The translations under genes and the position numbers were made by a program. Below the pieces are notes generated by a model that saw only the letters and a list, made by a program, of their open reading frames with translations, ran no database searches and was not told where the DNA came from. A stretch of DNA of 64,000 bases from Nocardioides sp. (GTDB lineage: Bacteria > Actinomycetota > Actinomycetes > Propionibacteriales > Nocardioidaceae), in contig NZ_JASEEQ010000017.1 in the NCBI RefSeq assembly GCF_030019515.1, forward strand, positions 1 through 64,000. Direction: 5' to 3'. This document shows positions 42,427-61,467 of this stretch, piece by piece. Position 1 is the first letter of the stretch. Each line of letters begins with the position of its first letter.

Positions 42427-44706
42427 ATGCGTCCGCGTCTCCTGCTGGTCCTGCTCGCCCTGGTGGCCCCGGTCCTGGTCGCCCTCCCGAGCGGCGGCAC
42501 CGCGGCCGCGACCAGCGGGTCGCTGGTCGTGCAGGTGCTCTCCAATCGGGCCGACCTGGTCTCCGGAGGGGATGCCCTCGTCGCCGTGCGCCTCCCGGCG
42601 GGCGTGGACCCTGGTCGGGTCCGGGTCACCGTCGGCGACCGCGACGTGACGACGCGGTTCGCGATCCGCGCCGACGGTCGGTACGTCGGCCTGGTCGACG
42701 GCCTCGAGGTCGGCCGCAACGTGCTGCGGGCGACCGCGCCCGGCCTGACGGGCGTGGCCGGCGACCGGGCGGTGATCGTCGACCACCCGAACGGCGGGCC
42801 GGTGTTCTCCGGGCCGCAGACCGAGCACTACCGCTGCCAGGGGTCCGCGCGCGATGCGCAGTGCAACGAGCCCGCGACGTACGACTTCCTCTACAGGTCC
42901 ACGGACCCGCTGACCCCCGACCTGCAGCCCTACGACCCCGACGACCCGCCCTCGGACGTCGCGACGACGACCACCGACCAGGGCGTCGAGGTGCCGTTCG
43001 TGGTGCGCCGCGAGCAGGGCTACCAGGACCGCGACCGCTACACGATCCTCACCCTCTTCCAGCCCGGGCGGCCGTGGCGCGCCTGGTCGCCGCAGCAGCA
43101 GTGGAACCACAAGCTGCTGGTCACCCACGGCGGCGGCTGCGGCGCGTCGTACACGCCCGGCTCCCCGCCGCTCGCCGACTACTCCGGCACCTTCGACGGC
43201 GCGCCGCTGATGACGCCGAGCTACGTCACCGCCCTCGGCCTGGGCTTCGCCGTGCTCTCGACCGCGCTGGACAACACCGGCCACAACTGCAGCGTCGCGA
43301 TGAACGCCGAGTCCGTGCTGATGGCCAAGGAGCGGCTGGTCGAGCAGTACGGCGAGCTGCGCTACACGATCGGCACCGGCTGCTTGGGCGGGTCGATCGC
43401 CCAGCACACCGTCGCCAACGCCTACCCCGGGATCTACCAGGGTCTCGTGACGACCTGCTCCTACCCCGACACGTTCACCGCCGGCGCCCAGTTCGCCGAC
43501 TACCACCTGCTGCGGCTCTACTTCGAGGACCCGTCGCGGTGGGCGCCCGGCGTCGTGTGGACGCCCGTGCAGATGGCGATGGTCGAGGGGCACCTCTCGC
43601 ACGTGAACGCCGTGGTGGCCGACGAGGGACTGTTCAAGGCGGCGCTGAACCCGGAGCACCCGTGCTCCGGCACGGTCGACCCCGAGCCCGGCGACCCGGC
43701 CACCCGCTACGACTCCGAGACCAACCCGGGTGGCGTGCGCTGCTCGGTGCTCGACCTGCTCGTCAACCAGCTGGGCCGTCGACCCGCCTCCGTGTGGACG
43801 CCGCAGGAACAGGCCGTCGGACACGGCTTCGGGGGCATCCCGTTCTCGAACACCGGCGTCCTCTACGGCCTCGCCGAGCTGAGGGCGGGCACGATCACGA
43901 CCGCCCAGTTCGTCGACCTCAACGCGAAGCTCGGCGGCCTCGACGTCGACGCCCAGGCGATCCCCGAGCGGATCGCGGGCGACCCGGCCTCGATCGCCCG
44001 TGCCTACCGCACCGGCCTGATCAACGAGGCGAACCACCTCGACGAGGTCGCGATGATCAACCACGGCGGTCCCGACCCGGGCATCGCGCACGACTATGCC
44101 CACGCGTTCTGGACCCAGGAGCGACTGCTGGCCGACCAGGGGAACACCGACAACCGGGTGATGTGGTTCGGGCCGACGCCACTGATCGGCGACGTGCACT
44201 GGGCCGGGGAGGCGCTGCTCGCGATGGACCGCTGGCTCGGCGCGGTCGAGCAGGACCACGGCCCCGAGCCGCTGGCCCGGAAGATCGCCGCCGACCGGCC
44301 CGCGGACGTCACCGACCGCTGCGTGGTCGACCAGGCCGCCGACGCCTGCGACGTCGAGGAGCTCCAGGTGCTCCAGACCCGGCTCTCGACCCCGCGCCAG
44401 GAGGCGGGCGGCCCGCTCGCGAACGACATCGTCGCCTGCGCGCTCACCCCGCTCGACCGGGCCGACTTCGACTTCCTGCTGGTCCCGCTCACCGACGCCG
44501 AGTGGGCCACCCTCCAGGCGACCTACCCCGACGGCGTCTGCGACTGGTCCCAGCCCGGCCTCGGCCAGGGCCCCGCCGAGACCTGGCTGCGCTACGACGC
44601 CGCGGACGGCGGCCCGGCGTACGGCGGCCGCGACCTGCCGCCCGTGCCCGCCGACTCCGGCCTCGGCACCCTCGGCCCGGTGTGGACGGAGATGCTGGCC
44701 AAGTAG
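42427..44706 (+). CDS. Exported DUF6351-family protein
   Basis: 759 residues. From ATG 42427 residues 1-27 form a signal peptide (RPRLLLVLLALVAPVLVAL, cleavage near an Ala-rich site). A short beta domain (SLVVQVLSNRADLVSGGDALV) is followed by a large hydrolase-like domain with GGGCGASYTPG, DNTGHNCSVAMNAES and GTGCLGGSIAQH, the blocks that define DUF6351. The G-C-L-G-G-S segment resembles a Ser-hydrolase elbow; catalysis is unproven. Many paired Cys fit an extracellular location. The upstream frame to 42325 lacks a signal sequence and was not used. Confidence 0.8.
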   Translation: MRPRLLLVLLALVAPVLVALPSGGTAAATSGSLVVQVLSNRADLVSGGDALVAVRLPAGVDPGRVRVTVGDRDVTTRFAIRADGRYVGLVDGLEVGRNVLRATAPGLTGVAGDRAVIVDHPNGGPVFSGPQTEHYRCQGSARDAQCNEPATYDFLYRSTDPLTPDLQPYDPDDPPSDVATTTTDQGVEVPFVVRREQGYQDRDRYTILTLFQPGRPWRAWSPQQQWNHKLLVTHGGGCGASYTPGSPPLADYSGTFDGAPLMTPSYVTALGLGFAVLSTALDNTGHNCSVAMNAESVLMAKERLVEQYGELRYTIGTGCLGGSIAQHTVANAYPGIYQGLVTTCSYPDTFTAGAQFADYHLLRLYFEDPSRWAPGVVWTPVQMAMVEGHLSHVNAVVADEGLFKAALNPEHPCSGTVDPEPGDPATRYDSETNPGGVRCSVLDLLVNQLGRRPASVWTPQEQAVGHGFGGIPFSNTGVLYGLAELRAGTITTAQFVDLNAKLGGLDVDAQAIPERIAGDPASIARAYRTGLINEANHLDEVAMINHGGPDPGIAHDYAHAFWTQERLLADQGNTDNRVMWFGPTPLIGDVHWAGEALLAMDRWLGAVEQDHGPEPLARKIAADRPADVTDRCVVDQAADACDVEELQVLQTRLSTPRQEAGGPLANDIVACALTPLDRADFDFLLVPLTDAEWATLQATYPDGVCDWSQPGLGQGPAETWLRYDAADGGPAYGGRDLPPVPADSGLGTLGPVWTEMLAK

Positions 44707-44756
44707 TCGGCCGGGACCGGCGGGCGGGCCGGGGGGCCGGCGGGCCGAGCGGGCCG

Positions 44757-44880
44757 GCGGTGTGCTGGCAACGTTTCATGGGGGTCGGTCGGTTGCTGGG
44801 TCACCGGTGGCCGGGTGGAGCCGGGGCGGGCGGTGTGCTGGCAACCGGTTGCGGCACATGATCGGTTGCTGGGTCACCGC
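44757..44880 (+). repeat. 124-bp repeat block U: two 51-nt palindromic units upstream of the DUF559 gene
   Basis: Two units begin 73 bp apart, at 44757 (arms partly decayed) and 44830 (intact). The unit form is GCGGTG-N6-CAACCG-N15-CGGTTG-N6-CACCGC, 51 nt. The block recurs with the same 73-bp internal spacing at 45954-46077; the second units of the two blocks are 50/51 identical. The remaining 44707-45002 intergenic DNA shows nothing else. Confidence 0.85.
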
Positions 44881-45002
44881 TGGCCTCAGCTCCGCTCTGA
44901 GTGCCGGCCCGGTCACGATCCACAGCGGTGCTTCCGTCCCGTCGATCCACTTCCGAACAGATGCACGCCCCGACACGGGCGCGGACGTCGTCGACTGTCG
45001 GC

Positions 45003-45965
45003 ATGCGCGATCTACCTCATGAACTCAGGAGCGGCCCGTTCACCCGTGCCCGCGCCCTCGAGCTCGGGGTGACCTCCCGAATGCTCCAGGGGCAGCAGTT
45101 CGTCAGCATCCACCGGGGCGTGTGGCGCCACCGCGAGCTCGAGATGACCAGTACGGGCCTGGTTGCGGCCGCGCGGCTGGCCCTGCCCGATCATGCCCAC
45201 TTGACCGGCATCACCCGACTGCAGGCCCTCGGCCTCGACTTCGGCCCGCGAGCGCCGGTGCGGTTCGTGGTCGAGGGCGATCTGCACCTCGTCCTCGACG
45301 GGGTCTTCCTCCACCGCACCGTCCGGCTTCCACCGACCGACGAGGTCGGGGTGATCCCAGCGGCTGCGTTCATCGCGTACTGCGCGAAGGCTCGCGTGAT
45401 CGATGCGATCAAGGTGGGTGACTGGCTGCTGCACGGCGGGCACATAACCGTCGAGCAGGTCGAGCTCCTGGCGCTCTCCGGCCTGTGGCGCGACGGGGCG
45501 CATGAGGCGATCTGGGTCCTGCCGCACCTGTCTGCGCGGTCGCGATCCCTGAAGGAGAGCGAGACCCGATCGGTCCTGCGGTTCGCGGGTCTGCCGGAAG
45601 CCGAGGTGAACGCGGCCGTCGACGTTCACGAGGAGGTCGAGGTGATCGCCGACCTGGTCTACCGGCGTTGGATGACGATCGTCGAGTATGAGGGGATCCA
45701 GCACCAGACCGATCGCGAGCAGTACGTGGCGGACCTCGACCGCTATGGGCTCCTCCGCGGTGCCGGTCTGCGGTACGTGCAGGTGACCCACGAGAAGCTC
45801 TCCCATCCCAAGATCCTGGTCGGCGAGGTGTATCGGGCCCTGCTCGCGGGTGGTTACGACGGTCCGGTGCCGCGGTTCGAGGAGCACTGGCGGCAGCTCT
45901 TCCTGCCGATCTCGACCGCGGTCGGGCCGCGCCGACTCCGGGCAATCGGCTCGGCGGTGGCCTAG
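45003..45965 (+). CDS. AbiEi-like HTH plus DUF559 endonuclease-fold protein
   Basis: 320 residues. The N-terminus (GPFTRARALELGVTSRMLQG, then FVSIHRGVWR) is the winged-helix start of type IV AbiEi-like proteins. The C-terminal part (about 205-290) reads VIADLVYRRWMTIVEYEGIQH and continues to LRYVQVTHEKL, the DUF559/Vsr-type PD-(D/E)xK fold with Asp and Glu metal ligands. No AbiEii toxin gene is adjacent. ATG 45003 is the likely start although it lacks a good ribosome site. GC is a little lower than in its neighbours. The gene lies between two copies of a 124-bp direct repeat and its last four codons fall inside the right copy. Confidence 0.78.
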   Translation: MRDLPHELRSGPFTRARALELGVTSRMLQGQQFVSIHRGVWRHRELEMTSTGLVAAARLALPDHAHLTGITRLQALGLDFGPRAPVRFVVEGDLHLVLDGVFLHRTVRLPPTDEVGVIPAAAFIAYCAKARVIDAIKVGDWLLHGGHITVEQVELLALSGLWRDGAHEAIWVLPHLSARSRSLKESETRSVLRFAGLPEAEVNAAVDVHEEVEVIADLVYRRWMTIVEYEGIQHQTDREQYVADLDRYGLLRGAGLRYVQVTHEKLSHPKILVGEVYRALLAGGYDGPVPRFEEHWRQLFLPISTAVGPRRLRAIGSAVA

Positions 45966-46077
45966 CAACCGTTCCTGAGGGTGGGTCGGTTGCTGGGTCA
46001 CCGCGGGCCGGGCCGGCGCGGGGTGAGCGGTGTGCTGGCAACCGGTTGCGGCACCTGATCGGTTGCTGGGTCACCGC
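45954..46077 (+). repeat. 124-bp repeat block D: two 51-nt palindromic units downstream of the DUF559 gene
   Basis: Units at 45954-46004 and 46027-46077, 73 bp apart as in block U. The first unit begins within the 3' end of the DUF559 gene and supplies its stop codon. The second is 50/51 identical to 44830-44880. The 411-base gene-free stretch 45966-46376 also holds a CRP-like site and a 12-bp tandem repeat. Confidence 0.85.
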
Positions 46078-46149
46078 CGGCCGCAGCACCACGACCGCGA
46101 CCACGACCGCGCCCCTTGTCACCGGTCCGCACCGGGCGTAGAACTCGAC

Positions 46150-46165
46150 TGTGACCTGGGTCACG
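46150..46165. promoter_or_regulatory. CRP/FNR-family binding-site candidate
   Basis: TGTGA-CCTGGG-TCACG matches the TGTGA-N6-TCACA consensus at nine of ten positions; GTGACC/GGTCAC makes it a near-perfect palindrome. It lies about 210 bp before the start of the large exported propeller protein. Confidence 0.45.
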
Positions 46166-46181
46166 TCCGCCGAACGTCCGC

Positions 46182-46253
46182 CGAACGCCGACCCGAACGC
46201 CGACCCGAACGCCGACCCGAACGCCGACCCGAACGCCGGCCCGAACGCCGACC
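46182..46253. repeat. Six tandem copies of a 12-bp unit (CGAACGCCGACC)
   Basis: Six contiguous 12-bp units, five identical and one with a single change (CGAACGCCGGCC), preceded by a degenerate CGAACGTCCGC. The unit length is a multiple of three, but no translated frame here has a start and a ribosome site. It lies between a CRP-like site and the exported propeller gene. Confidence 0.85.
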
Positions 46254-46376
46254 GCGCACGGTCGCCGATCGCCACGACCTGGCAACTCCACATCGAAGCC
46301 TGACCAACTGACCGGAGCGTCGTTAGGGATCTCGAGGCCGATGGTCGACCTCCGCTCGTCCTCACAGGAGTCCCGA

Positions 46377-49300
46377 ATGCCCAACTCGCTGCGCATGCGC
46401 TGGTTCGCCCTGGCCCTCGCCCTCGCGCTGGTCACCTCCCTGGTCGCGGCGGTGCTGCTCACCCGCCCCGATCGGGCGATCGCCGGTGCCGAAGCGTGCG
46501 CCCCGGGCTTCCAGCCGGTCGACGATGCGCTGCGTGAGGTGCGCGCCGAGATGCGGACCGAGGGGGAGTACGCCGAGGAGGCGGACCACGACGCGGAGGC
46601 CGAGCGTGAGGCCGCGGCCGAGCACGAGGCCGGCGAGGAGCACGAGGGCGACAGCGAGCTGGTCCGCGAGGCGGTTCGCGAGCTGCCGATGCTCCGCGGC
46701 ACCGACCCGGCGGACTGGGACCACTTGTGCGTCGTCAGCAAGCGGCCGGAGTCGCTGAAGGAGCTCAACGCGCTCTTCGAGACCCGGGCGATGGCCCGGC
46801 TCGCGCCCTACGGCGCCTACCGCGACGGTGCGGGGTACGCCGCCGCCCGGCAGGCCGCGACCCTGCGGACCACCCCCGCGGCCAGCGGCCGCGCCCGGCA
46901 GTACGGCCACGGACCGCTGATCGTCGACGACCCGGCCTACCCCGAGGTCAACGGCCTCGGCCTGGCCGACAACATGGGCCGGATCGACAGCTTCGCGCTG
47001 GACCCGGCGCACCAGCGGATCTTCGCGGCGGTCGGCAACGGCGGCATCTGGCGCTCCGACGACCTGGCCGCGCACTGGACCGACGCCACCGGCGACCTGC
47101 CGACCACGGTCACCGGTGCGGTCGGCTGGACCCGCTACCGCGGCGGGCGGCTGATCGCGCTGACCGGCGAGCCGACCTTCGGTGCGTCGGCGTACACCGG
47201 CCTCGGCGCCTACTGGTCGGGCGACCTCGGCCGGCACTGGACCCGCGCCAAGGGCGTGCCCGCCGGCGCGCTCGGCTTCGCGGTGGCCGTCGACCCGGCC
47301 AGCCCCGCCAAGGTCTACCTGGCCACCCAGAAGGGCCTCTACGGCTCGGTCGACGGCGGCCGCTCCTACCGCAACCTGCGGCTCCCCACCGGCCCGTGCG
47401 CCGGCGTCACGAACACCGCCGAGAGGCCCGAGTGCGCGCTGGCCAACGTCGTGACCGACGTGGTCGTCGCGACCAAGGGCGGCGTCGGCACCAGCACCCG
47501 CGCCGGCACCGTGGTCGCGACCGTCGGCTGGCGCGGCGGCCAGCGCACCAACCCCGACGGCTCGGTGCAGTCGCCGCACAACGGCGTCTACCGCTCGGCA
47601 ACCGGCAAGGCCGGCAGCTTCCGCCGGCTGGCGACCTCCGGCTTCGCCGCCCCCGACGCCATCGGCCGGGTCGAGCTCGGCAACGCCGTCGGCCCGGAGC
47701 AGGACCACGACATCCTGTACGCCGTCGTCCAGGACGCCAACCTGCTCAACCACGGCGGTGTCGCCGGCATCGACGCCCCCGACGAGCTGGGCCCCCCGCC
47801 CGTCGGCACCACCGTCCTCAACGGCATCTACGTGTCCACGGACTTCGGCGGGACCTGGACGGAGCTGGCCTCGGGGACCTCGCTGACCGCCGACCCGACG
47901 ACCGGCTCGGCCCTGATCGGCACCGGCACCGCGATCGGGTACCAGCCCGGCGTCCAGGGTTGGTACAACCAGTGGATCCAGCCGGACCCGACCCGGGCCG
48001 ACGCCAACGGCGTCCCGACCCGGCTCGCGTTCGGGCTCGAGGAGCTCTGGACCAACGACCTGGGCCAGGCGGGCACGCCGCTCGACGGCTCCGTGCCGGT
48101 GCACTTCGTGGTCGCCGGCAAGTACTTCGGCGGCGACTCCTGCCTGCTGCTCAGCGCCGGGCTGCCGGCCTGCCCCACCGATCGCGACCCCACCGACGAC
48201 GGCTCCACCACCCACCCGGACCAGCAGGACGGGCTGTGGATCCCCGACCCCGGGGTCGCCGGCGGCGTGCAGCTCGTGGTCGGCAACGACGGCGGCGCCT
48301 ACCGCTACCGGTTCGAGGACGACCCCGACGGCGAGCTGGACAACGGTCACTGGGGCCCCGGCGACCAGACCGGCTTCGACACTCTGATGCCGTACTTCGC
48401 GGCGATGGCCAACGACGGCACCGTCTACGCCGGCCTCCAGGACAACGGCAACCTCAAGATCGACGGCAAGACCCGCAAGCAGTACGAGACGTACGGCGGC
48501 GACGGCTTCTTCTCGGCCGTCGACCCCTTCGACTCCAAGACCGCCTACGAGGAGTACACGAACGGCGCGATCTCGGTCACCGTCGACGGCGGCACCAGCT
48601 GGGCGGGCATCGACCCCGGCCTCACCGCCTCGAAGTTCTCCAACCCGTTCGCGATGGACCCGACCAACGCCAAGCACCTGGTCACCGCCGGGCGTGAGGT
48701 GGTCGAGACGCTGATCGGCGCGAGCACCACCTCCGGCATGACCGACGCCGCGGACGCGGACGCGTCGACCACCACCTGGCGCAAGGTGTTCGACCTCGGC
48801 ACCCGCTCCGCGCCCGGCGACGCCGGCGCGGCGTCGTCCTCGGCCGACCCCGACAACTCGATGTCGGCGATCGCGACCCGCCGCAACGCGACGTACGTCG
48901 GGTTCTGCGGCTTCTGCGACACGCTCAACAAGCTCTCGACCACCGCGTCGCTGTTCCGCAACGGGCTGGCGACCAACGTCGGCGGCGGCGCGGCGGCCGC
49001 CGCCGGGACCGCCGCGGGCTGGCATGTCGTGAAGCCGACGGGCCTGCCGAATCGCTACATCACCTCGATCGCGATCGACCCCAAGGACCAGAAGACGGTG
49101 TACGTCACGCTCGGCGGCTACACCCGGCGCTGGCTGCCGCCGGGCGCCGTCGGCGACGCGAACGCCCAGATCGGCAGCGGCCATCTGTTCGTCTCCCACG
49201 ACGCCGGGCGGCACTTCCGCGACATCTCGGGGAACCTGCCGGACTCGCCGGCGAGCTGGGTGACGGTACGCCGCCACCAGCTCCTGGTCGGCACCGACGT

Positions 49301-52831: not shown

Positions 52832-52882
52832 GCGGTGTCCCAGCAACCGACCTGTCGCCCCGAACGGTTGCTGCCGCACCGC
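52832..52882. repeat. 51-nt palindromic repeat unit
   Basis: GCGGTG-TCCCAG-CAACCG-N15-CGGTTG-CTGCCG-CACCGC, exactly 51 nt; all four 6-nt arm blocks match the consensus. It sits in the 114-bp gap between the convergent cysE and regulator genes and may also end transcription. Confidence 0.85.
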
Positions 52883-61416: not shown

Positions 61417-61467
61417 GCGGTGTGTGAGCAACCGTCCGGGGGCTGGGTTCGGTTGCCTGGGCACCGC
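61417..61467. repeat. 51-nt palindromic repeat unit
   Basis: GCGGTG-TGTGAG-CAACCG-N15-CGGTTG-CCTGGG-CACCGC, exactly 51 nt, with all four arm blocks matching. It lies between the tRNA-Asp terminator and the metallopeptidase gene. Confidence 0.85.

Follow-up and report, generated by a model that had tools for sequence, protein, structure and literature searches.

A predicted nuclease gene with an AbiEi-type winged helix in Nocardioides is bracketed by 47-bp palindromes whose inner hexamers covary with its recognition helix

Our analysis of a 64,000-nucleotide stretch of a Nocardioides sp. genome (contig NZ_JASEEQ010000017.1, positions 1 to 64,000; here referred to as the window) revealed a gene for a predicted AbiEi-type winged-helix protein with a Vsr/EDxHD-like nuclease domain that is bracketed by 47-bp palindromes, further copies of which are dispersed through the 4.6-Mb genome. 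Among relatives of this gene, the inner hexamer of the palindromes covaries with the recognition helix of the protein, and from these sequence comparisons the protein very probably recognises the palindromes. We consider it rather probable that the gene and the palindromes constitute a cognate nuclease-palindrome system, laid out like the REP/RAYT pair and served by an unrelated enzyme.

A preliminary description of the region had reported a 124-bp direct repeat around the gene, at positions 44757-44880 and 45954-46077. This repeat is real: 106 of the 124 bases are identical, the 51-bp right halves differ at a single base and the 51-bp left halves at nine in the block alignment, and the similarity stretches to 151 bp with 83% identity. 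That description missed, however, that every block consists of two 47-bp palindromes, the starts of which lie 73 bp apart and which follow the pattern GGTG-N5-GCAACC-N17-GGTTGC-N5-CACC. The exact pattern occurs five times in the window, as opposed to none in 100 dinucleotide shuffles. The elements are located as follows.

44759..44805, no strand: 47-bp element, left block copy 1, with one mismatch (GCAACG)
44832..44878, no strand: 47-bp element, left block copy 2, 73 bp from copy 1
45956..46002, no strand: 47-bp element, right block copy 1, holding the stop codon of the gene
46029..46075, no strand: 47-bp element, right block copy 2, 73 bp from copy 1
52834..52880, no strand: dispersed solo element between convergent genes
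61419..61465, no strand: dispersed solo element within a crude ORF call

As had been noted before, the gene ends inside the right block, its TAG codon (45963-45965) falling within the first element of that block. The suggestion that the blocks arose by duplication of a target upon insertion was not supported, since they are members of a palindrome family dispersed through the genome and since the palindromes on either side of orthologous genes differ in sequence; target-site duplication was thus rejected. A main role as an RNA hairpin or terminator was also rejected, owing to the fixed length of the elements and the helix covariation described below. As the length stays constant while N5 and N17 vary, a protein-bound DNA dyad suits the elements better than an RNA hairpin, and a search of positions 44500-46500 against Rfam yielded only matches far below the gathering scores and hence no known RNA family. 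Shortly after the right block, a 12-bp tandem repeat (CCGAACGCCGAC) occupies positions 46181-46252.

The open frame of the nuclease gene begins at a GTG at position 44901, and its likely start is an ATG further downstream.

45003..45965, + strand: gene of the AbiEi-type winged-helix and Vsr/EDxHD-like nuclease protein, with ATG 45003 as the likely start
45075..45089, + strand: recognition helix SRMLQ, residues 25-29 from ATG 45003 (residues 28-32 in the numbering of the covariation alignment, used below)

The AlphaFold2 model of the protein was confident (pLDDT of 92.5, pTM of 0.90), with the third helix of the winged helix as the specificity helix. Residues 1-177 of the model match AbiEi (6y8q; Z of 9.1 over 170 residues, 5.3 A), and the structure of Rv2827c of Mycobacterium tuberculosis (1zel) gave a Z of 6.5. 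Residues 182-285 match the catalytic domain of I-Bth0305I (3r3p; Z of 10.1 over 96 aligned residues, 2.5 A) as well as NGO0050 (Z of 9.2) and Vsr (1cw0; Z of 7.3), values to be read with the note of the structure-comparison tool that a Z of 7-8 may occur without kinship. Foldseek returned nothing at E 0.001 with this model, the best matches being AbiEi (0.0068) and I-Bth0305I (0.10, probability of 1.00), and PADLOC reported an AbiEi match with an E value of 0.002. The predicted fold fits the AbiEi-like helix-turn-helix and nuclease fold of the preliminary description. Its DUF559 label turned out to be weaker, as the window protein stays below the Pfam cut-offs (DUF559 at E 0.16, no family reaching E 0.01) and the 47 family members gave weak matches only (REase_MTES_1575 in three, DUF559 in three and AbiEi_4 in one). 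Accordingly, the DUF559/Vsr assignment is based on family members and the predicted fold and not on the Pfam score of the window protein; the MTES_1575 REase itself is described as a Vsr fold in the excerpts available of PMC3710099. Residues E185 and D217 are present in all 47 sequences and E228, E230, H234 and D244 in 46 of them. E185, D217, H234 and D244 may correspond to the E, D, H and D catalytic residues of the EDxHD motif. An early stop in the matched frame was found in four of 49 orthologs (L129, L136, L141 and L145). In agreement with the earlier view of a multicopy gene type, the window's genome (G000) contains eight matches to the family profile, some of them partial; however, the other family genes of this genome do not share the flanks, as none lies less than 9 kb from an element. 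The two neighbours of the gene in the window encode a DUF6351 protein and a sortilin/BNR-type protein.

The proposed connection between the gene and the repeats on either side of it was borne out, palindromes of the same geometry being present beside 44 of 49 ortholog loci. Close orthologs with 47-67% identity occur in 14 other genomes of the genus, and a wider scan raised the number of close loci to 49 (43-67%), spread over Nocardioides, Aeromicrobium, Mumia and Pseudactinotalea. This preferred set represents 48 genomes; a 63-locus set repeats species of both collections. The orthologs are flanked by GGTG...CACC palindromes of 45-47 bp with a variable inner hexamer (GCAACC, GGCTCG, GGCACC, GGACCG, TCCACC, CAGAGG, GCCAC, CCCAC or GGGGG). 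By a strict scan, an element lay within 500 bp of the gene at 42 of the 49 loci, and 112 elements were counted in 94 kb near the genes versus three in 850 kb of farther flank; beside 14 distant homologs, the same scan detected no GGTG...CACC element. The pattern GTGG...CCAC gave 19 near and two far matches, and we interpret most of those near the genes as GGTGG...CCACC elements matched in a shifted register. When lengths of 44-53 bp were allowed, 44 of the 49 loci had an element and 32 had one on both sides, compared with 9 of 341 control window pairs, and the loci missed by this relaxed scan (L100, L108, L138, L146 and L147) revealed longer or imperfect variants by eye. The tabulated elements (66 and 62) start with GGTG and end with CACC by selection, and they almost always stand within GC...GC, which is nearly constant although it lay outside the selection criteria. 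At 15 of 50 loci, the stop codon falls inside an element. The elements of L108 (N. halotolerans) carry GGTCA/TGACC in place of GGTG/CACC, showing that the outer part can change, too. A less sensitive, two-sided 7-mer palindrome test was positive at 26 of 50 close loci, 1 of 624 controls and 17 of 69 distant loci, the last count taking in the low-complexity row L152 and mis-anchored windows.

We then compared the recognition helix at each locus with the consensus half-site, five half-sites being typed by eye. The helix [TS]SRMLQG pairs with GCAACC (6 of 6 loci), [TS]DR[MR]LQ with TCAACC (3 of 3), [TS]ERMLRG with GCGACC (2 of 2), [ST]RDVLEG with GGGGG (5 of 5), [ST]KKMLEG with GGCTCG (2 of 2) and xR[MVQ]LEG with GCCAC. 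Left out of the helix tests were the truncated L118, L138 with no clear hexamer and the four loci with early stops; L153, which has an in-frame stop, was left out of A4. The protein column most strongly associated with each of hexamer positions 1-5 was always located in the recognition helix, at position 1 by a near tie (z of 5.4 in the helix versus 5.3). Positions just outside the hexamer point to other columns, and positions 6 and 7 track the split between two subclades. Across 44 rows, residue 32 and hexamer base 3 formed the combinations Q-A (9), E-C (19), R-G (3), E-G (5), Q-C (2) and others (6). Once distance over the remaining protein had been partialled out, residues 28, 29 and 32, which were picked post hoc from the same covariation data, correlated with the hexamer at r = 0.70, a value reached by none of 5,000 random residue triplets (maximum of 0.23). 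An unselected scan of 7-residue windows ranked TSRMLQG first (0.55), and the best window elsewhere (0.36) belongs to the same helix-turn-helix domain.

In a tree built without the helix columns, RDVLE with GGGGG was sister to PARVLE or TPRMLE with GCCAC/CCCAC three times, and the placement of this pair beside other helices in three parts of the tree indicates that specificity was repeatedly switched or exchanged. Phylogenetically independent pairs joined A with Q in 5 of 5 cases (p of 0.0625, too few for significance alone) and C with E in 3.9 of 9, none pointing the opposite way and the rest showing no difference. At one syntenic locus shared by eight species, the hexamer is GCAACC, GCCACC, GGCTCG or TCCACC (L100 by eye), which indicates that the switching happens in place. 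In Nocardioides astragali, there are two units (L110 and L122), and their hexamers differ (GCAACC and GGGGG).

The palindromes extend well beyond the flanks of the gene. The genome of the window contains 27 copies of the pattern with up to three mismatches, 23 of them perfect, and none of the reversed control pattern; 7 of the 27 lie on the 94-kb contig C8, which comprises the window and beyond. Among the 23 sites whose context was read, 10 were convergent, nine tandem, two divergent and two inside crude ORF calls, leaving 21 outside ORF calls. The GCAACC form (up to two mismatches) occurs in 10 of 58 genomes, G000 counted, often in arrays with 73-bp steps, the tandem array of G010 (C2:174262-174896, L372) comprising nine elements at exact 73-bp steps. 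Across 13 genomes, 143 sites with elements, including some that adjoin a gene of the nuclease family, were classified by crude ORF calls as tandem (58), convergent (36), divergent (8), inside ORFs (37) or at edges (4). Per genome, the sites beyond the gene flanks numbered from at least 2 to at least about 70, mostly just 3′ of genes, and arrays often have steps of 73 or 82 bp.

The link between the elements and the resident protein was analyzed with a covariance model built for the 47-bp type that accepts every paired hexamer but is biased toward its 40 training elements; its counts represent about two matches per site, include the gene's own flanks and refer to no more than 150 scored candidates per genome. 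All 15 genomes with an ortholog gave 10-149 matches among the candidates scored, as opposed to the 22 genomes without one, 16 of which had no match, two a single match and four 15-67 matches (Fisher p of 5e-7). These four are G005 (27), G006 (15), G016 (67) and G032 (45); none of them has a close ortholog, only more distant relatives of the protein, the helices of which were compared by eye only. Beside the arrays of G032, G016, G006 and G005, no significant cognate protein was found in 12 stretches, one of them from G019. Thus, the elements either outlast the protein or are served by a different one, and these four genomes are the main result against a strict dependence of the elements on the protein.

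At the retrieved sites, the dispersed copies mostly bear the hexamer of the resident protein, except in G026. GGACCG was present in at least one arm at 8 of 9 sites of G024, GGCTCG at 3 of 3 sites of G008 (one of four stretches yielded no site) and TCCACC at 2 of 2 sites of G031, and G029, which has two orthologs, contains two element families matching the respective flanks (4 of 19 stretches yielded no site). The second ortholog of G029 (C38:110848-111709, L313) is seemingly split over two frames and has its own GGGACG-like element family. Of the ten G026 sites, two are of its own GGCACC type and eight are GTGTCG-like, and for this second family (GTGTCG/GGGTCG-like; L289, L291-L296 and L298) no cognate protein was found in G026.

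Some sites stay while their hexamers change. At the same gene end, two GCAACC elements of G013 align base by base with two TCAACC elements of G016, GGCTCG in G008 corresponds to a GGCACC-like element in G026, and the same gene is adjoined by GCAACC in G000 and GGGTCG in G026. An alignment of one gene end showed three copies in G000 versus one in G032, and within one shared interval relatives differed by nine versus two elements. Such comparisons are few and available only where both species have elements, and the orthology of L191/L382, L204/L390 and L201/L380 relies on ORF matches. L293/L377 was dropped as a shared site, its element and array being one gene apart. Different hexamers at the same gene end fit selection of binding sites as well as homogenisation driven by the nuclease. 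An alternative that we regard as unlikely, although the strongest of its kind, is therefore that the protein acts in chromosomal regulation or architecture and the palindromes are its selected binding sites at gene 3′ ends, acting in insulation, supercoiling or transcription arrest and re-tuned whenever the helix changes, with the nuclease domain serving repair or being incidental. The shared gene ends of G013/G016, G008/G026 and G000/G026 speak for it, as does the regulation by inverted-repeat binding reported for AbiEi relatives in the excerpts available of PMC7319586. However, sites of G000 are seldom divergent (2 of 23, versus 10 convergent, nine tandem and two inside ORF calls), so that few can be operators; moreover, the changes in copy number between relatives (3 versus 1 and 9 versus 2), the 16 members of the genus without any model match and the almost invariant putative catalytic residues are difficult to reconcile with it.

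The gene itself is found at a limited number of places. Of the 49 orthologs, 22 lie beside the sdh operon, eight at a second shared site and the others, including that of the window, elsewhere; sdhB, checked in six of the sdh-site loci, and a small membrane-protein gene were named from our reading of the sequence, and the neighbouring BrkB gene was assigned by Pfam. The gene thus seems to stay at its position in most lineages and to relocate occasionally. In 18 stretches covering the sdh site in genomes lacking the gene there, no element with intact ends was found, and several of the nine stretches read by eye hold a small membrane-protein-like gene instead of the unit. At the window locus, the downstream neighbour was not present within 1.5 kb of homologs of the upstream neighbour at eight loci of relatives, so that no empty site was found there for comparison. 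A solo element of G026 and a whole but frame-broken unit of G029, which adjoins the neighbouring gene, lie near the same gene, an arrangement compatible with either loss or gain.

These locations also bear on a second and still less probable alternative, in which the gene and its flanking palindromes form a transposable element, the palindromes are the transposition ends of the enzyme and the solo copies are ends or relics. The unit occurs at two or more shared loci and many singletons, the window among them, two units are present in both N. astragali and G029, and the solo element of G026 and the unit of G029 stand beside the same gene, all of which speaks for this alternative. On the other hand, 22 of the 49 loci fall at the sdh-operon site and eight at the other shared site, indicating inheritance mostly in place, the 18 sdh-site stretches of relatives lack any solo element, hexamers change in place, and neither a target duplication nor a fixed outer boundary of the unit was found. 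It is hardly credible that the palindromes are just transcription terminators of the usual kind or GC-rich repeats formed by chance, with an incidental closeness to the gene, for although the genome is rich in GC and they stand at the 3′ ends of genes, their geometry is fixed at 46/47 bp with no match to the reversed pattern, they are enriched beside one gene family, 16 of 22 congeners without an ortholog have no match, and helix-hexamer covariation contradicts it.

Some of the more distant members of the family are bracketed as well. A palindrome common to both flanks was found in 19 of 68 and 11 of 24 distant members (L152 being left out of the 68-member test), compared with 6 of 535 mispaired-flank controls; the other 62 of 92 had no shared palindrome by that test, some perhaps owing to uncertain gene ends. 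The bracketed members include those of Actinomadura and other families of the order, and their palindromes differ from the 47-bp type.

Among known systems, the layout most resembles REP/RAYT, for which the excerpts available of PMC3733652 describe extragenic palindromes in convergent or tandem intergenic regions near gene 3′ ends, single or arrayed and bracketing a nuclease-type gene. Like in a REPtron, the palindromes here bracket a gene (both sides at 32 of 49 loci) and are dispersed outside genes. A difference is their copy number, which here is in the tens. The enzyme, too, is different, as it combines an AbiEi-type winged helix with a Vsr/EDxHD-like domain and is not a Y1 transposase, no Pfam match to a Y1 tyrosine transposase being found at E 0.01 in 47 members; the palindrome ends carry no REP-type GTAG or CGTC tag in the tabulated elements (66 and 62), and recognition looks like the reading of double-strand half-sites by a helix. 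The layout thus works like a REP/RAYT pair, but by enzyme, tag and recognition the system is not a member. The gene of an EDxHD homing endonuclease, or its intron, typically interrupts its own target site; here, complete sites flank the gene on both sides (32 of 49 loci) without being interrupted by it, and the genome retains tens of sites that are intact. The likeness to I-Bth0305I and Vsr concerns the predicted fold of the catalytic domain (Z of 10.1 and 7.3), the DNA-binding part being AbiEi-like, unlike in I-Bth0305I. The dimerisation of I-Bth0305I on a target of nearly 60 bp, as stated in the excerpts available of PMC3943268, nevertheless provides a useful parallel for a 47-bp palindrome. 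The AbiEi antitoxin of Streptococcus agalactiae and Rv2827c of M. tuberculosis, whose own promoters contain the 23-bp inverted repeats that they bind according to the excerpts of PMC7319586, likewise consist of a winged helix-turn-helix and a second domain; the proteins described here differ by the fused nuclease domain and by sites on both sides of the gene and genome-wide. In contrast to AbiE type IV toxin-antitoxin systems, no DUF1814 toxin gene was present among the two neighbours at the window locus, the one locus scanned. In the open-licence PMC literature, we found no earlier description of this nuclease-palindrome association.

Returning to the cognate nuclease-palindrome system that we favour, the N-terminal AbiEi-type winged helix would read the inner hexamer of each palindrome half, presumably as a dimer given the symmetry of the palindrome, and the contact with the near-constant outer GCGGTG would probably be made by a region of the protein that varies less. 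Judging from its predicted fold and the conservation of its acidic and His residues, the C-terminal Vsr/EDxHD-like domain probably introduces nicks or breaks into the DNA of the palindrome or close to it. RAYT transposases are believed to promote the copying and amplification of REPs, and the likeliest mechanism here is that nuclease action would similarly promote copying, amplification and sequence homogenisation of the elements, with recombination between the bracketing copies occasionally moving or deleting the gene. That the palindromes are cut and are maintained, spread or rewritten as a result is our best mechanistic guess.

A broader and more tentative possibility, to which we would give less than an even chance, is that nuclease-palindrome systems, selfish or domesticated, make up a widespread class in Actinobacteria that has so far gone unrecognised, in which each AbiEi-Vsr gene has a private palindrome, found on its two sides and spread over the genome, and the sites are rewritten in place, genome-wide, upon mutation of the helix. 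If true, this class would offer a natural, readable protein-DNA code and a case of concerted retargeting of chromosomal sites that is unrelated to RAYT transposases. For a family labelled 'unknown function' or 'AbiEi-like', a probable DNA target was found from sequence alone, and the natural helix-to-hexamer pairs (Q:A, E:C and R:G at one position) are open to simple testing. Through these pairs, one could learn how the specificity of a nuclease shifts together with that of tens of sites on the chromosome, and the system as a whole suggests a second route, by way of an unrelated enzyme, through which bacteria acquire REP-like palindromes.
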